Source: Porticoccus sp. (GTDB taxonomy: Bacteria; Pseudomonadota; Gammaproteobacteria; Pseudomonadales; Porticoccaceae). From it: a stretch of 44,442 bases of DNA. Positions 14,874-22,108 of this stretch are shown piece by piece (within the stretch, counting starts at the first letter, position 1; every line of letters starts with the position of its first letter). Below the pieces are notes generated by a model. That model was not told the origin of the DNA. It saw only the letters and a list, made by a program, of their open reading frames with translations, and did not search any database. The translations under genes were made by a program, and so were the position numbers. The DNA lies in contig JAGPWA010000026.1 in assembly GCA_018066715.1 (NCBI GenBank), positions 1 to 44,442 on the forward strand, in the 5' to 3' direction.

Positions 14874-15053
14874 TCAATCCAGATCGAAATCATAATCCTG
14901 GATGCTTTTTTGCAAACGCCTCTCTTCGAGCTGGTCTTCCAACCGGCGTCGTACGTCAGAGTAAACTATGCTCTCAACCTCTTTAAGATTCGGCTCTTGA
15001 GCCTCATCTTCAAGATCAAAGTCTTCATTTTCTAGTGCTTTTTTTCCACTCAT
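14874..15053 (-). CDS. PA3496-like small acidic protein
   Basis: A small, highly charged protein of 59 aa when started at the ATG MSGKKALENEDFDLEDE. The ORF track starts nine codons earlier, but this ATG has a strong GGAGGAG seven bases upstream. The C-terminal half contains SDVRRRLEDQLEERRLQKSIQDYDFD, which resembles the RR-x-ED-LEERRL motif of the Pseudomonas PA3496 family (putative envelope integrity). No signal peptide or membrane segment is visible. It precedes ccmA by 112 bp on the same strand and has its own promoter candidate. The family assignment is from memory of the motif and the function is not established. Confidence 0.7.
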   Translation of the reverse strand: MSGKKALENEDFDLEDEAQEPNLKEVESIVYSDVRRRLEDQLEERRLQKSIQDYDFDLD

Positions 15054-15084
15054 ACCGAAACTCCTCCATCTCGATACCAACTAC

Positions 15085-15121: not shown

Positions 15122-15150
15122 AAAATAGGCTTAAAATGAGGAGCCGTCAA
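15122..15150 (-). promoter_or_regulatory. Sigma-70-type promoter candidate for the PA3496-like gene
   Basis: On the minus strand TTGACG (-35, five of six matches) is followed after 17 bp by TATTTT (-10, four of six). The spacing is optimal, and the 69-bp distance to the ATG is reasonable. It could also drive the ccm operon by read-through. Confidence 0.5.
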
Positions 15151-15310
15151 GAAATATAAACTCTATTATTTCATATAGTTAAACTTTGATCCTAGGTTAC
15201 ACCACAATAACCGAACCCCCATCCTCATAGACAACGTAGACAAGAAGCCAAATCTGGTCTATCAATACCAACCCAACCCGTTAAAACCTCTCAAAATAAT
15301 GACTCATAAA

Positions 15311-15337
15311 AGCCATAATAACAGCCATATTATGGCT
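15311..15337 (+). terminator. Leader hairpin with CTTTTCT tail (terminator or attenuator-like)
   Basis: Arms AGCCATAAT and ATTATGGCT pair perfectly over nine bases with a 9-nt loop, followed by CTTTTCT on the plus strand. The loop contains a second AGCCAT that can pair instead with the same ATGGCT, giving a shorter competing hairpin. On the minus strand the element is also followed by TTTTATG. It lies about 75 bp upstream of the sensory operon, so it may insulate that operon, attenuate it, or act as a DNA dyad. Confidence 0.45.
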
Positions 15338-15411
15338 CTTTTCTAAGCCAGCCTAGAGAACAACATAACCTATGATGCGATTTGAATACCATTGAACCCG
15401 AAAGAGAAACT

Positions 15412-16686
15412 ATGGAAAACCTATATAGGAGCTTCGCGAAAATAGCGGTACTCGCCTATCTAAGCATATTACCTATGCAGGCAATGACGATGGACCTCAA
15501 TGAAATCATTCCTAGCCTATACGGTGGCGATGGCGTCACCTTGTGGGATACCCATAGCACGGCATTTACACAGGCGAGTCTGGAAGACTTACAGGGGCTA
15601 TCTGAGACACTGTCCGACTTTTCTCAACCATCGCTCTCATCAATCGTCGGCCTGACCTTTGAGTTCGACCCCATCCTGGATGAGTTTGTCCCAACAACTA
15701 CTACACAGAGCTTGGGCTCCTCTCTGACAGAGCGCCCCCAAACCGTAGGTAAAGGCGTGTTTACTTTTAGTATTGCCTATGGCCATACCAAATTTTCCGA
15801 GCTCGACGGCCACAGTTTAGACAGCCTTACCCTTGACTTAGGGCATTCAGATCCGCCGCCTGGCGCACTTACCTGCTTGGCCCCTGGGTTTCCAAATCCA
15901 CCACCAGATAATTGCTACAGCTTTTTAGATGATGTGGCACGCTTAACCTTGAAGCTAGACATTACACAACAGTTTATTAACCTGTCGACGAGTTATGGTT
16001 TGACTGAAAATGTTGATATCGGGTTTCACATCCCAATAATACACACTAAAGTTAGCGCCTCTTCTGTAGCGTCCATCGTTAACGATCCCTCTATTATCTA
16101 TTCGCCCCTTGGTGGTAACGGTTCTTTGCATGGTTTCGACCCCATCAATGGAGACGACCCTGTCTCTTCTGCTTCGGGGAGTCATACTGGTATGGGTGAT
16201 TTTTTTATCCATGCAAAACATCATTTCTACGACAGCGATAAGCTGAACTTGGGATCACTTTTTCAAGTTCGATTACCCACAGGTGATGAAGATAACTTGC
16301 AAGGTATTGAAGACGTGGGTGGTAAAGCGATGTTGCTTGCTGATGCGACATTTCCTCTTAATAACGGCAGTCTCACGCCTTACCTAAATGCTGGCATTGC
16401 GGTGAATACCAGTAATTCAGGACAAGATAAATTGATGTATAATGTAGGGCTGGAGTACGACGTAATTTTTGGCGAACATCACACCTCTGCATCTATCGAT
16501 TTCATGGGCAGGAATACCATCACAAACAAGAGCGACAGTGGCGAAGATATATATGATCTTGGCCTGGGCATAAAGTATGCGCTAACCAAACGTGGTTCTG
16601 TTTATGCCAATATCATCTTGCCCATTAATGATTCCGGGCTACGTCCAGATGTGACGTATATTTTTGGTTTTACTTGGACCAAATAA
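15412..16686 (+). CDS. Outer-membrane beta-barrel protein, Phenol_MetA_deg/COG4313-like
   Basis: The 424-aa protein starts at ATG MENLYRSFAKIAVLAYLSIL. The track begins ten codons earlier at a TTG, but AAAGAGAAACT favours the ATG. A signal peptide ending around PMQAMT is followed by a segment of low similarity to anything I recognise. From about residue 110 alternating amphipathic beta-strands appear (FTFSIAYGHTKFSEL, FINLSTSYGLTENVDIGFHIPII, GMGDFFIHAKHHFYDSDKLNLG). These, with FQVRLPTGDEDN, match the style of the Phenol_MetA_deg 'transporter' family. That family is thought to form outer-membrane channels, sometimes near aromatic degradation genes. The protein ends IFGFTWTK, without the classical C-terminal Phe. 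It is the first gene of a tight three-gene operon. Substrate unknown. Confidence 0.7.
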   Translation: MENLYRSFAKIAVLAYLSILPMQAMTMDLNEIIPSLYGGDGVTLWDTHSTAFTQASLEDLQGLSETLSDFSQPSLSSIVGLTFEFDPILDEFVPTTTTQSLGSSLTERPQTVGKGVFTFSIAYGHTKFSELDGHSLDSLTLDLGHSDPPPGALTCLAPGFPNPPPDNCYSFLDDVARLTLKLDITQQFINLSTSYGLTENVDIGFHIPIIHTKVSASSVASIVNDPSIIYSPLGGNGSLHGFDPINGDDPVSSASGSHTGMGDFFIHAKHHFYDSDKLNLGSLFQVRLPTGDEDNLQGIEDVGGKAMLLADATFPLNNGSLTPYLNAGIAVNTSNSGQDKLMYNVGLEYDVIFGEHHTSASIDFMGRNTITNKSDSGEDIYDLGLGIKYALTKRGSVYANIILPINDSGLRPDVTYIFGFTWTK

Positions 16687-16690
16687 ATTC

Positions 16691-17635
16691 ATGAATCAGT
16701 TTGCCACCTTACTTTGCATAGCTATGCTCACCCTGGCTACCATAGGCTCCTCGCCAGTCCAGGCAGAGGTGAATACGCACACCTTATATATTATAAAAAC
16801 CAAATCACTGCCCGCAATCAATCAAGTCATCTCGTCAATCAAGAACGTTAATTCGCATAACATTATTATTAAAGAGTTTGATCTTGATGGGAAAAAAGAA
16901 CGTAGCAACACCATCGTTGAATCCATTCAATCGCAAATAACTGACCCTGCTAATGCGACAGTCATGACCCTGGGAACACCAGCAACACAACTTGCTATAG
17001 ATCAACTGAACAGCATTAATATCATCTACACGATGACCGACAGCGTAAAGCTAAGCCTGTCCTCCCATAAAAACATCTACGAGGTATCAGACAAACCTGA
17101 TATTGCTCAGCAATTGCATATTCTGGAGAAATTTCTACCCGGAGTAAAAAAAGTTGGCCTCATTGCTGAAAAAAAATATATGAGCAACATGAAAGTTGAA
17201 ATAAACGAGGCCAAAAACGCATCAAACCTTCATGTTCTACTCAAGACCATAACAACACCCAAAGAAGTGCCCTCGGTGTTTAGGGAACTTCTTCCAGAAG
17301 TAGATGCCTTTATTTTTATTCAGGACCCCATCGTCATTAATAGTATGTCCTACAAATACCTGGTTACCACAGCACTTGAAAACAATAAACCGACTTTAGT
17401 TTATTCAAATTATCTAGTGAAAGCTGGATTCTTGGGTGCCTACCTCCCAACACCGGAATACATTGCCAAACAAACAATAACGTTAGTTGGTGAGTTTCTT
17501 CATAAAAAACCGATGGCAGCGGAACAAGTACATGATGAACAGCAGCTAACACTACACATCAATAAAAAAACGCTCCAAATACTCAACATCCAGATACCAG
17601 AAGCCCTATCAAACATAACGACACTGGATAATTAG
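16691..17635 (+). CDS. Periplasmic substrate-binding protein, ABC_sub_bind (COG2984) family
   Basis: A 314-aa exported protein, started at [23 protein letters not shown], four bases after the previous stop; the track start at 16664 is a TTG inside the upstream gene. The signal peptide ends near SPVQA. The mature part shows the two-lobe pattern of ABC_sub_bind proteins: [18 protein letters not shown], then [45 protein letters not shown] and [25 protein letters not shown]. Known relatives bind small ligands such as aromatic amino acids. No ABC permease or ATPase gene is adjacent. Instead a hybrid kinase starts four bases downstream, so a ligand-sensing role feeding the kinase is inferred. The gene is visibly rich in A/T and Lys/Asn/Ile codons compared with the ccm genes. 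Confidence 0.8.
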
Positions 17636-17639
17636 ACCA

Positions 17640-19733
17640 ATGAATGCACTGACGAAATATAGAATTATTTCTAGATGTAACAGCTTAAAAGTTAAAAGCA
17701 TTGCATTTCTAGTTGTATTGGTATTTTTTGTTACCCTTACATTAACCTGGTTATCACTCAGTAAAATGTACAGTGTAATGCATGAAGAACTCGACAAGCG
17801 CGGGTTTTCTGAAGCCAGCACTCTTGCCCTGGACAGTTATTACGGTCTACTGATGGAAGACCACAACATTCTGGACCAACAGATTAAAAACCGAATAAAC
17901 CGACATGATATCGCCTCTGTTCATATCGTTAATCAGTCGGGAATCCTTATTGCCTCCAGCGACAATAAACATCTGAACAGCAAGTTTCAGGATTTATTTA
18001 TAGAAAGCGCCATCTCCAAAGGGAGTAATTACACCAAAGAAACTTACGACCAAGGAAGAAGCCCAAAAAACAGTCCTCACAACAACAAAATACAGCCTAC
18101 CAAAGATTTATATTACTATTATTCACCCGTGCTGCTCAACAAGAGCACCCATGCAGATATACAGCATTTTGAAGGTGATTTTCTCGATAATGACACAGGG
18201 TCAGAATCGATGATGGTAGGCTGGATCAGAGTGGGGATTTCACTGAGCAATCTGCACTCAACATTCAATAGTTTATTGTTTTTTTCTATTGTCATTTCAT
18301 TCCTAGTATCCATTGTCACTATTGGCATCTCTTATATCATCATCAATAAAACGCTAAAGCCTTTAGAGGAGATATCAAAATCTACTCGTTCGCTGGCAGA
18401 AGGAAATTTTTCCGAGGCCCAAGAAATACGCATCACCTCACATGATGAAATTGGCTCGCTATCCGCCACGTTCAATTTAATGATCAGAAAACTGCAGGCC
18501 TACAGTCTCCAGGTAACACAACGGACAAGGCAATTAAATAAAGCAAAACAAATTGCTGAATCAGCAAATATGGCAAAGAGTGACTTCCTCACCAATATGT
18601 CTCATGAATTACGTACGCCATTAAATTCTATTATTGGTTATTCTGAAATGTTACTCAGCAGACGTCCTGGGGAGCTGAATGAAAAACAAATACGCTTTGT
18701 TAATAATATTTCGAGTAGTGGTGACCATTTGCTGGATTTGGTTAATGATATTCTTGACATCTCAAAAATTGAAGCAGGAAAAGATGGCCTTAACTTAAGC
18801 AAAGTATCCATTACAGCGCTTGCAGAACAAGTCAAACACACACTATCCCCCCTTACCCAAGACAATAAGATTGATTTTAAAATCGATCCAGCCGAACAAG
18901 ATATCGTTATTGACGCAGACCAAACGAAGCTCACACAAATACTATTAAACTTATTACGCAACGCGATTAAATTCACCAATAAAAATGGGAAAGTAACCCT
19001 ATCAACCCAATATATCCAACTCAATGATTACATTAAACATGATACAAATGATGCTAAAGGCATACTAATCTGTATTCAAGACAGTGGACTGGGCATCAAA
19101 CCTGAACACCAAACTCTTGTTTTCAACAAATTTGAACAAATCGATTCTTCCTTATCCAGAGCCCAGGAAGGAACAGGATTGGGACTACCCCTGACAAAAA
19201 CATTAGTAGAAATGCACAGGGGTGTGATCTGGGTAGAAAGTGACGGCATCCCAGGCAAGGGCTGCAAGTTTTGTTTTGTCTTGCCCATATCGCAAGATGA
19301 GCCTGAAGACGCTGGTACTAAGAGCCACATGATGCTCCCCGGCATTCATCAAACCCAGGCTGACACCCCTCCATCAGATGACAACATTCTTGTGATTGAA
19401 GATGACTTTCTTCTATGGGAATATTTAGCCACCGTACTCAATGACGCGGGCTATTTCGCGAAATTCTCAGCCAGTGCTAACGAAGGCATCAAAAAAGCAC
19501 GAGAAATACAGCCAATGGCTATATTGCTCGATATCAAGCTTCCAGATAAAAGTGGTTTTGATGTTATAAAAATTCTGAAATCTCACGGGGACACTAAAAA
19601 CATTCCAATCATTATCATTTCGTCAATTGATAAAAACTATAATCAGTCAAATGGCTATATTGACTGGCTGACCAAACCAATTGACACGAAACGCTTGGTT
19701 CAATCCCTCCATCAACTGGCAGGAAACGATTGA
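17640..19733 (+). CDS. Hybrid sensor histidine kinase (periplasmic sensor-HAMP-HisKA-HATPase-REC)
   Basis: A 697-aa membrane kinase. Helices lie at about 20-42 and 213-236, bracketing a periplasmic domain of about 170 residues. HAMP follows at about 237-290 ([17 protein letters not shown]). The HisKA H-box [16 protein letters not shown] has the phosphorylated His at about 322. The ATPase shows N-box [12 protein letters not shown]1 DSGLGI and G2 GTGLGL. A C-terminal receiver has LVIEDD, acceptor Asp near 631 ([12 protein letters not shown]) and the conserved Lys near 679. All catalytic residues are present. It starts four bases after the binding-protein gene, so the pair is probably translated together and the binding protein is a likely sensory partner. 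The receiver needs an HPt partner, and a REC-HPt gene lies convergently downstream. The ligand is unknown. Confidence 0.93.
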
Positions 19734-19741
19734 GTTATCTA

Positions 19742-19786
19742 ATGACCTGCACCACCCAACCAACTTAAAGATGTTGATGACCTGCA
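19742..19786. repeat. Pair of 10-bp direct repeats between the convergent kinase and REC-HPt genes
   Basis: ATGACCTGCA occurs at 19742-19751 and again at 19777-19786, a 35-bp period, inside the 69-bp convergent gap. No hairpin terminator is visible in the gap. The meaning is unknown and it may be chance. Confidence 0.3.
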
Positions 19787-19802
19787 TGATTAATCCAGTT
19801 TT

Positions 19803-20606
19803 CTAACTTTTCTCACAGCAGCGTCTTTCATAATTTTTCAATGCAGGGACCGCAGAGGCAAATTCTTTCTCTAAGCGAGAAACCAACAGTGGAATAGATA
19901 GCTCCCCTTTCTCCAAGTGCCAATACTCAAGGTCATGACAGGTTTGAGCCACGTTGTTAATGCCGAGATTAGCACTACTTGATTTCAACGTATGTGCAGA
20001 AAATATAAGCTTGTTGATATCATCATTATCAGCAGCACAACGGATCTCTTCCAGGAAATGCTCTGCCTGATCAAAATAAGCCTTTATCAACTGCTTTATG
20101 ATCGCTGGATCGCTGCAAACACTTTCAATCACCTGAAAATCGATGTCCGCTGAAGCACTATTCTCTGAAATCTCACTAACCCTATCGTCATCCGCCAACA
20201 ACACTGTGGGTAGTTTTTCCATCGCAAGCCATTTTTCCAGCAACCCCTGTAACTGGTCAAATTTAAATGGCTTGCTTAAATAGTCATCCATGCCTACTTC
20301 AAGGCATTTATTTTTATCACCCATAACGGCATTTGCAGTTAATGCAATGATCGGTACACGTCGGCCAGTAGACGATTCACCCTCAATTCTACGGATCTCT
20401 TGTGTTGCCTGAAAACCATCCATGCCAGCCATATGGCAATCCATTAAAATCAGAGAAACATCGTCTTTTTTGAATTTCTCTACTGCCACCGCACCATCTT
20501 CGGCGACGATATATTCGTAATCCATTTCTTCAAGCATGTAGCAAACAAGCTCAAGATTCATCTGATTATCTTCTACAACTAAAACCTGCCGTGGCTTGCT
20601 CATCAT
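19803..20606 (-). CDS. REC-HPt phosphorelay protein
   Basis: A 267-aa cytoplasmic protein. The N-terminal receiver domain (VLVVEDNQMNLELVCYMLEE) has acceptor D56 in LILMDCHMAGMDG, Thr near 90 (IIALTANAVMG) and Lys near 112 (YLSKPF). A linker of about 35 residues leads to a C-terminal HPt domain with the phosphorylated histidine near 205 in FSAHTLKSSSANLG. It has no DNA-binding, GGDEF/EAL or other output domain, so it can only pass phosphate on or act as a sink. It faces the hybrid kinase, whose receiver could hand phosphate to this HPt. The two adjacent ATGs lack a clear Shine-Dalgarno. The stop of a possible 26-codon leader peptide overlaps the first ATG (TAATGATG), suggesting coupled translation. 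Confidence 0.9.
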   Translation of the reverse strand: MMSKPRQVLVVEDNQMNLELVCYMLEEMDYEYIVAEDGAVAVEKFKKDDVSLILMDCHMAGMDGFQATQEIRRIEGESSTGRRVPIIALTANAVMGDKNKCLEVGMDDYLSKPFKFDQLQGLLEKWLAMEKLPTVLLADDDRVSEISENSASADIDFQVIESVCSDPAIIKQLIKAYFDQAEHFLEEIRCAADNDDINKLIFSAHTLKSSSANLGINNVAQTCHDLEYWHLEKGELSIPLLVSRLEKEFASAVPALKNYERRCCEKS

Positions 20607-20686
20607 TAGAGCGCGCCAACAGTTTGATTTTGATTGTTACTTTTCAAAATACGTCCTTTTTTACCCTGTCTGGCATGTTGACCCAT
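20606..20686 (-). CDS. Possible 26-aa leader peptide upstream of the REC-HPt gene
   Basis: In the minus-strand leader an ATG opens a frame MGQHARQGKKGRILKSNNQN and ends TAA, overlapping the REC-HPt start as TAATG. A perfect TATAAT lies 13 bp upstream of this ATG, so the expected message would begin only a few bases before it (near-leaderless). An internal TTG start with an AAGGA upstream is an alternative. The peptide is basic and matches no family I know. The evidence is the position and stop-start overlap only. Confidence 0.25.
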   Translation of the reverse strand: MGQHARQGKKGRILKSNNQNQTVGAL

Positions 20687-20699
20687 TTTAGGAATAAAT

Positions 20700-20705
20700 A
20701 TTATA
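20700..20705 (-). promoter_or_regulatory. Perfect TATAAT -10 element upstream of the REC-HPt gene
   Basis: TATAAT on the minus strand, about 94 bp upstream of the REC-HPt ATG. The -35 region at 17-18 bp spacing (TCCTGT/TTCCTG) is a poor match, so this may be an activator-dependent promoter or a chance match. Confidence 0.35.
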
Positions 20706-20737
20706 GGTGTACTCACAAATTTACAGGAAGCAAAATG

Positions 20738-21394
20738 TCACACATCAGCCATACATTGTTTAAATTCAGCGAAATCTGACAGTACCACAAGGTCCTCTGG
20801 GCGATCAATATCGGGGAGTGCTGACAGCTCTTTCCACCGCCAACTAAGATTATTCAATCTTTTGCGAGTCACTTCCATCACCTCCCCTGAACCCCAGGGA
20901 ACCCCTGTAAACAATTTCAGGTCTAAACGATTCAATCCTACCAACACATACCCTCCATCCGTGGCCGGGCCAAACACGGCAGGAACATCATCAAGAGCCG
21001 CCAATGCTTGCGTAATATACTCACCATCAATCGCCGGGCAGTCACTGCCAATAATGATGACTCGACTATATTGCTTTAGCCTATCAGCAAAGGCATTGGC
21101 CATTCGCTCGCCGAGATCAGAGCCTTGCTGCTCGACCAACGGAACACCAGCACCCTCGACTAATTGATGAAAAAAATCATGTTCAGCACTGCACCATAAT
21201 TCCAGGTTCGAAACGGCAGATGCCTGATGAAGACGGAACTGATAATCCACCAGTGCGCAATGTAATTGCAGACTCCCGGTTTCCCCCAATGCAGGCTCAA
21301 GCCGTGTTTTTACCCGTCCCGGCAGGGGGGCTTTTGCAAATTGAAGCAAACAACTATCAGGGTACTGTACAGTCATTCTGGATAGCTCTGTCAT
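20738..21394 (-). CDS. TIGR04282-type glycosyltransferase (DUF2064, arsenosugar-associated)
   Basis: A 218-aa GT-A-like nucleotidyl/glycosyl transferase of the COG3222 group. Family signatures are CLLQFAKAPLPGRVKTRL at the N terminus, SDLGERMANAF, the acidic metal-binding IIIGSDCPAID, and FGPATDGGYVLVGLN followed by VPWGSGEVMEVTRKRL. A downstream methionine (MTVQYPDS, at 21376) is a plausible alternative start; neither has a strong Shine-Dalgarno. It is the last gene in a row with a TIGR04283-type glycosyltransferase and arsS, 27 bp after the former. That neighbourhood is the usual arsenosugar-associated set. The substrate is inferred from context, not from any residue. Confidence 0.85.
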   Translation of the reverse strand: MTELSRMTVQYPDSCLLQFAKAPLPGRVKTRLEPALGETGSLQLHCALVDYQFRLHQASAVSNLELWCSAEHDFFHQLVEGAGVPLVEQQGSDLGERMANAFADRLKQYSRVIIIGSDCPAIDGEYITQALAALDDVPAVFGPATDGGYVLVGLNRLDLKLFTGVPWGSGEVMEVTRKRLNNLSWRWKELSALPDIDRPEDLVVLSDFAEFKQCMADV

Positions 21395-21421
21395 TATGGG
21401 TATGTGATTTCAAGGAGGTCA

Positions 21422-22108
21422 TTATGAGTAATACTGCCGGGCCAAATGTTGTGGAGAGACACCTAAAAAATAGGCAAGGCGTAGACGCCACATCTGCAAA
21501 ACTGTCCGGAGAATACCTCGTTGCTCCCACCGACGACTCGAGGTGGTGACAACGCCCCGCTGAAATGAGGGCTGACTAACCTTTTTCAGGCGACGACAAA
21601 ACTCAACGTCCTCCATCAAGGGAATATTGGCAAAACCATTGAGCGATTCAAATAATGTACGGCGAACAAACAGTGCCTGGTCACCCGTGCCAATACCGAA
21701 CATTTGTGAACGAATATTCATCCCACGCTCGATCACTCGAAACAGCCATGCTGAACCGCTCAACTTAACAGGGAAAAAACCCCAATTCAGACCGTCCAAC
21801 CAGGCCGTTGAGAAATCAGAGGGTAGCTCGGTATCAGCATGCAGAAACAACAGGTATTCACCACGGGCATATCCCGCCCCAGCATTCATTTGTTGTGCGC
21901 GGCCTCGTTCACTATGCACTACTTGGTCAGCATACAACGCTGCCAACTCACAGGTATGGTCTGAACTCCCACCATCAGCAACAATGACTTCAACACCCAG
22001 ACCCCGAATACTTATGTCACGAAGTCGTTGTAACTTTTTAAGGCAAAGACCTATTTCTGTCTCTTCGTTAAGTGACGGAATGATAATGCTGAGAAATACA
22101 GTCATCAT
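21422..22108 (-). CDS. TIGR04283-type family 2 glycosyltransferase (arsenosugar-associated)
   Basis: GT2-fold transferase of about 228 aa. The N-terminal nucleotide-binding segment is FLSIIIPSLNEETEIGLCLKKL, followed by VIVADGGSSDHTCELAA and the metal-binding region YLLFLHADTELP. The acceptor region is GTGDQALFVRRTLFESLNGF, then PLMEDVEFCRRLKK. The track start at 22129 would overlap arsS by 22 bases. The two tandem ATGs at the arsS stop (TAATGATG) are better starts, and this entry uses the first. Direct stop-start overlap with arsS supports one transcript and one pathway. Confidence 0.87.
   Translation of the reverse strand: MMTVFLSIIIPSLNEETEIGLCLKKLQRLRDISIRGLGVEVIVADGGSSDHTCELAALYADQVVHSERGRAQQMNAGAGYARGEYLLFLHADTELPSDFSTAWLDGLNWGFFPVKLSGSAWLFRVIERGMNIRSQMFGIGTGDQALFVRRTLFESLNGFANIPLMEDVEFCRRLKKVSQPSFQRGVVTTSSRRWEQRGILRTVLQMWRLRLAYFLGVSPQHLARQYYS

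Follow-up and report, generated by a model that had tools for sequence, protein, structure and literature searches.

The four genes at 15.4-20.6 kb of the window (the whole 44,442-nucleotide stretch of Porticoccus sp. DNA that was analyzed) probably encode one phosphorelay sensor, dependent on a periplasmic substrate-binding protein (SBP) and acquired as a cassette. We assign this reading, which was derived from sequence comparisons, a probability of about 0.72.

Gene organization and domain architecture

Three genes of the plus strand encode an outer-membrane beta-barrel protein (15412-16686), a periplasmic SBP with a signal peptide (16691-17635) and a hybrid histidine kinase of 697 amino acids (17640-19733). 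Their coordinates leave 4 nucleotides between the members of each pair, as stated in the initial annotation of this DNA. A fourth gene, on the minus strand (19803-20606), is convergent to this operon and lies 69 nucleotides past the kinase stop codon; the Response_reg and Hpt domains of its product confirm that a REC-HPt protein faces the operon, as had been proposed.

The barrel, presumed to be the channel through which the ligand enters, gave only sub-threshold porin matches of its own in Pfam and no Phenol_MetA_deg match above the cut-off. A homologue at the same gene position in another locus (L062, 35% identical) matches Phenol_MetA_deg with 29.5 bits (cut-off 22; 9.5e-7), so that the Phenol_MetA_deg-like label first given to the window protein is probably right by homology. 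Weak barrel matches elsewhere in the class (G651, G780, G656, G552 and others) have no adjoining SBP and were set aside as ordinary Phenol_MetA_deg-type barrels or cut contigs.

The SBP was matched to the Pfam family ABC_sub_bind (PF04392) at 5.7e-19 and 68.9 bits, above the curated cut-off of 25.9, and its AF2 model (pLDDT 89) shows a two-lobed SBP; score and fold together uphold the earlier description of an ABC_sub_bind periplasmic protein. The nearest structures in the PDB are CD0873 and the S. pneumoniae tryptophan-binding protein, the matching entries being 6hnj, 3lft and 3lkv. The solved PF04392 members are aromatic amino-acid binding proteins, whose structures hold tyrosine, phenylalanine or tryptophan (PMC6816091). 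The window SBP thus shares its family and fold with the aromatic amino-acid ABC importers (CD0873, TrpX, VC_1101), whereas the window set includes neither a permease nor an ATPase and the clade of the window SBP, which retains the GTPAT-type loop, has [IV]KT[KR][SA]xP in place of EHPALDA, a motif of the ligand lobe. Because of this replacement, the ligand may differ from those of the solved members.

In the kinase, Pfam identified HAMP, HisKA, HATPase_c and Response_reg domains and a weak sCache_4 match, and hydropathy peaks near residues 13-43 and 209-235, taken as its two membrane segments, flank a periplasmic part of about 165-170 residues; the hybrid architecture and the periplasmic domain of about 170 residues described before are both borne out. 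The H, N, G1 and G2 motifs are intact, and the phospho-sites are present, His322 in the HisKA-HATPase core (18573-19292, plus strand) and Asp631 in the REC domain (19386-19709, plus strand). The sCache_4-like sensor (residues 44-205; 17769-18254, plus strand) scored 24.1 bits when residues 1-310 were analyzed alone and 21.7 bits in the full protein, the cut-off being 22.1. Of 36 SBP-linked sensors, 21 have a periplasmic part that matches sCache_4, and a profile built from such sensors (A5) matches the periplasmic detector of GacS (5o7j; PMC5595915) with an E-value of 5.9e-10. Structures similar to the AF2 model of the kinase sensor (pLDDT 80) include the Cache/PAS domains of WalK, LapD-type proteins and CitA, with LuxQ far down the list. 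The LuxQ model scored 210 bits against the kinase (cut-off 1200) and covered residues 295-658 only, which correspond to the kinase core and part of REC. The comparison with LuxP-LuxQ drawn in the initial annotation is valid in principle but not for the detector, which is closer to sCache_4/GacS than to LuxQ.

The REC-HPt protein contains Response_reg (3.1e-26) and Hpt (5e-13) domains, with Asp56 and His205 in place. Its best NCBIfam model is BarA, matched over residues 667-884 (C-terminus), and its closest matches in relatives are REC-HPt segments within other hybrid kinases. The BarA equivalog model (cut-off 890 bits) gave 186 bits for the kinase and 128 bits for the REC-HPt protein. The likeness to GacS/BarA and GacA/UvrY systems lies in the kinase, which likewise has a sCache_4-type detector, HAMP, HisKA, HATPase and REC, and in the REC-HPt protein, which resembles the C-terminal part of BarA. 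In GacS/BarA, however, HK, REC and HPt form one protein, whereas the window system is split over two and has an SBP and a barrel as partners.

Association of PF04392 proteins with sensors

The genomic context supports the view that the PF04392 protein is part of a sensor and not of a transporter, as far as gene neighbourhoods can indicate this. In the genome of the window (96% complete), all three genes for PF04392 SBPs immediately precede a hybrid kinase gene, and no match was obtained to the BPD_transp_2 permease (PF02653) in a search that was positive in 12 of 14 control genomes. Among 61 PF04392 loci examined from the family of the window, the next same-strand gene after the SBP encodes a kinase or a GGDEF-EAL sensor in 59; in the remaining two, the kinase is split into two frames or the locus lies at a contig edge. 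A TonB receptor is located just upstream in about 53 of these loci, and a permease beside the SBP in none. The original remark that no ABC permease or ATPase accompanies the SBP is correct for the operon and is extended by the genome-wide and family-wide permease searches. The proposal made with it, that the SBP probably serves the kinase, gains support from the 59 linked loci, the three SBP-kinase pairs of the genome and the missing permease.

At class level, 50 SBPs taken from the top of the E-value list, and so not a random sample, were sorted by a script, which placed 30 beside a sensor and 11 beside a transporter, found 1 fused to GGDEF-EAL and left 8 with other neighbours. One scripted "transporter" (L210) is really an SBP-kinase pair with an unrelated upstream ATPase, which corrects the numbers to about 31 and about 10. 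Over 36 loci, SBP distances and sensor distances are correlated with r = 0.93, a value as high being reached in 0 of 2000 shuffles; this shows co-inheritance, which alone also explains the correlation, and is only suggestive of contact.

Other outputs were seen in the sampled loci. A single 937-aa protein (L226, 4030-6840) contains PF04392, PAS, GGDEF and EAL, i.e. an SBP fused to a c-di-GMP enzyme. In L222, L225 and L231, SBP-linked kinases are followed by REC-PAS-GGDEF-EAL, REC-GGDEF or GGDEF proteins, and some sister systems therefore have a linked c-di-GMP output.

Within the genome of the window, contig C103 carries a TonB receptor, an SBP and a 1496-residue kinase with three RECs, HPt, GGDEF and EAL, in the order HK/REC/REC/HPt/REC/GGDEF/EAL. 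A TPP-dependent acetolactate-synthase-like gene and two genes of 268-272 aa precede the TonB receptor there (L004, 1565-12594). The two small genes have no NCBIfam match; in many relatives, two genes of about 270 aa occupy the same place, and they might hint at the ligand. At C106 (L005, 5273-8907), a PF04392 SBP gene overlaps the following gene for a BarA-like HK-REC-HPt protein, the best BarA homologue of the genome (504 bits, below the equivalog cut-off of 890). Pairs of this type are preceded by a TonB receptor in most relatives.

Recurrence and insertion of the gene set

When 84,980 species genomes were searched with the barrel alignment, three loci were obtained (L159, L160 and L161), and a scan of the genome contigs with the single SBP sequence found no relative. 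In L159, from a Lysobacterales MAG, a barrel 58% identical to that of the window is followed after ~5 nucleotides by an SBP that is 49% identical over its first 187 residues and is there joined, through a deletion, to kinase residues 451-549 (60%) and, after a second gap, to REC residues 640-690 (61%). The convergent REC-HPt gene is intact, its product being 50% identical across the whole length with the histidine kept. Judged by its sequence, L159 is the same cassette with a decayed SBP/kinase centre. In L160 (a Pseudomonadales MAG), a barrel-SBP-kinase operon is divergent from a lone REC gene whose product is 45% identical to the REC of the REC-HPt protein; a REC is missing from this kinase, and an HPt from the separate REC protein. 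Frameshifts were noted in the L160 barrel (about 5434) and in the G2 box of its kinase (about 8130), reflecting either real decay or assembly error. In L161, which comes from Gammaproteobacteria bacterium 53_120_T64 and seems to be the same contig as L062, barrel and SBP are followed by a sensor-HAMP-PAS-GGDEF-EAL protein.

The expectation that these families would stand side by side in other genomes was thus realized: L159 and L160 combine the barrel and the SBP with a REC-HPt or REC protein, and L161 has barrel, SBP and sensor. On account of these arrangements, the convergent gene is unlikely to stand there by chance, and the output part of the system is exchangeable. The SBP-controlled c-di-GMP enzymes of the NspS-MbaA type offer a parallel to L161, which likewise pairs its barrel and SBP with a sensor-GGDEF-EAL protein and not with a kinase. 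Their SBP family and sensor domain differ from those of the window, however, and the output in the window is a kinase.

In all seven readable same-genus sites (L148-L152, L154 and L155), ccmA and the DUF2064 gene are adjacent and the block is absent; L153 was left out because its ccmA was missed by the coarse ORF caller. The gap between ccmA and the DUF2064 gene in the empty site of G016 is about 155 nucleotides. By blastn, positions 15123-15173 and 20751-21600 of the window align to G016 sequence only about 20 nucleotides apart, which defines an inserted block of ~5.56 kb (15174-20737, borders approximate). The block was either gained in the lineage of the window or lost repeatedly elsewhere, and gain is the preferred reading, since none of the same-genus genomes searched has the barrel and its 58%-identical counterpart lies in a Lysobacterales MAG. 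The barrel was also not found on the plasmids searched. No transposition mechanism is claimed, since no direct repeats were present within either flank and none were evident by eye across the junctions.

The impression of an A/T-rich block hinting at acquisition stood only in part. The block genes have a G+C content of 39.6-45.7%, compared with 48.4 +/- 1.6% for the remaining genes of the window (z -1.7 to -5.6). Neither their third-position G+C nor their synonymous codon choice departs from the range of the host, so that composition alone is weak evidence of acquisition. The empty site is the better evidence.

An open frame of ~58 codons (14880-15056, minus strand) lies between ccmA and the insertion. 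Several genomes of the genus, among them L149, L150 and L152, have similar sequence upstream of ccmA, but G016 lacks it.

Proposed mechanism, alternatives and known systems

In the proposed mechanism, a small solute would cross the outer membrane via the barrel and be bound in the periplasm by the PF04392 protein, as expected from its family. The loaded SBP would dock on the sCache_4-like domain and change the activity of the kinase, a step suggested by the tight linkage, the congruent divergence and the absent transporter. From the observed site His322, phosphate would pass to a REC Asp and then to His205 of the convergent REC-HPt protein, and the HPt would exchange it with an unlinked regulator, as donor or as drain. 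Since L160 keeps REC but not HPt, the system may be able to do without the HPt step. A UvrY/GacA-like protein on contig C119 (3.6e-72; 242 bits, cut-off 280) is the best candidate for this regulator, a tentative choice based on the BarA C-terminus match of the REC-HPt protein and on the presence of only four HPt domains in the genome (C103, C106, C75 and the window), the C94 and C107 proteins being left out as apparently Che-type by size and setting. The earlier statement that no output domain is encoded nearby thus holds locally but not genome-wide, given this regulator and the GGDEF/EAL outputs of sister loci.

Some observations count against the model. To our knowledge, the GacS/BarA sensors of E. 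coli and Pseudomonas function without such an SBP, and the L159 copy of the four genes is broken. The kinase might instead sense alone, directly or through the barrel, with the SBP acting as a scavenger or buffer of the ligand and not as a receptor subunit. Direct binding of acetate has been reported for E. coli BarA (PMC8639471), whose sensor domain is of the same class, and some neighbouring SBPs did not bind the sensor domain of their kinase (PMC11113362), which speaks against docking. Throughout the loci, however, the SBP-sensor pair stays constant while outputs (HK, GGDEF/EAL) and outer-membrane partners (barrel, TonB receptor) are swapped, which suggests that the pair is the functional core and makes sensing by the kinase alone improbable. 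It is less probable still that the SBP serves an ABC importer whose other components are encoded elsewhere, its adjacency to the kinase being incidental. Outside the family, in the order or class, PF04392 genes do stand together with genes for a BPD_transp_2 permease and an ATPase (L117, L118, L203, L204 and L206), and the aromatic amino-acid ligands of the solved members would suit an importer; the absence of a PF02653 permease from the genome, the position of all three SBPs beside hybrid kinases and the conservation of the SBP-sensor neighbourhood across the family leave this explanation strongly disfavoured.

Two further alternatives concern the distal part of the pathway. The REC-HPt protein may be an independent phosphorelay protein carried on the same DNA, as its opposite strand, the lack of a demonstrated shared promoter and its resemblance to segments of other hybrid kinases would allow. 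We consider this quite unlikely in view of the full-length orthologue at the same convergent place in L159, the related REC beside the L160 operon and the fact that the kinase itself has no HPt. There is a somewhat greater, though still minor, chance that the pathway ends at REC or REC-HPt, as a phosphate sink or through protein-protein contact, and not at a DNA-binding regulator. L160, with its REC-less kinase and lone REC, indicates that a REC-only terminus occurs in the clade, but the window and L159 keep an intact HPt histidine, which needs an upstream or downstream REC partner.

Like the kinase of the SBP-dependent phosphorelay proposed here, LuxQ and TorS are hybrid kinases needing an HPt. 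In LuxP-LuxQ, TorT-TorS and BctC-BctE, the gene of an SBP likewise adjoins that of a transmembrane kinase, and the SBP presumably contacts the periplasmic domain of this kinase; the principle is described in PMC9602780. The window system differs from them in its PF04392 SBP, its sCache_4-like sensor, an operon type that includes a barrel or TonB receptor, and a separate convergent REC-HPt gene. That SBPs activate sensor kinases is established, and the mechanism is described as widespread (PMC9602780, PMC11113362); for many of these kinases, the gene of the SBP is a direct neighbour (PMC11113362). The open-access literature searched yielded nothing on ABC_sub_bind with histidine kinases or on sCache_4 with substrate-binding proteins, which is not proof of novelty. 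We did not find described PF04392 as the SBP of a kinase, its pairing with sCache_4, or a barrel or TonB receptor as fixed partner; nor a constant input pair combined with changing outputs, the barrel-SBP-kinase/REC-HPt cassette, or a link to the GacS/BarA signal.

A wider and more speculative generalization, which we hold to be possible but would not yet favour, is that PF04392 SBPs are the missing ligand-presenting subunits of the large gammaproteobacterial sCache_4 (GacS/BarA-type) sensor class. Outer-membrane channel or TonB receptor, SBP and sensor would then form one trans-envelope chain with exchangeable outer-membrane part and output, of which the window cassette would be a laterally moved example. 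If this is true, the BarA-like global regulator of the window's family would take its signal through such a chain. The module provides an example of how the input pair of a sensor can be retained when outer-membrane channel and output are replaced, and if the SBP is the receptor, ligand screening would be simple, as SBPs are soluble and lend themselves to purification and direct testing. According to PMC7695008, the signal of GacS is still unknown, which lends interest to the wider pattern that includes the SBP before a BarA-like kinase: GacS-class detectors are here tightly paired with an outer-membrane channel and with an SBP whose family binds aromatic amino acids in its solved members. The SBP gene preceding the BarA homologue at C106 may likewise bear on the GacS/BarA signal.
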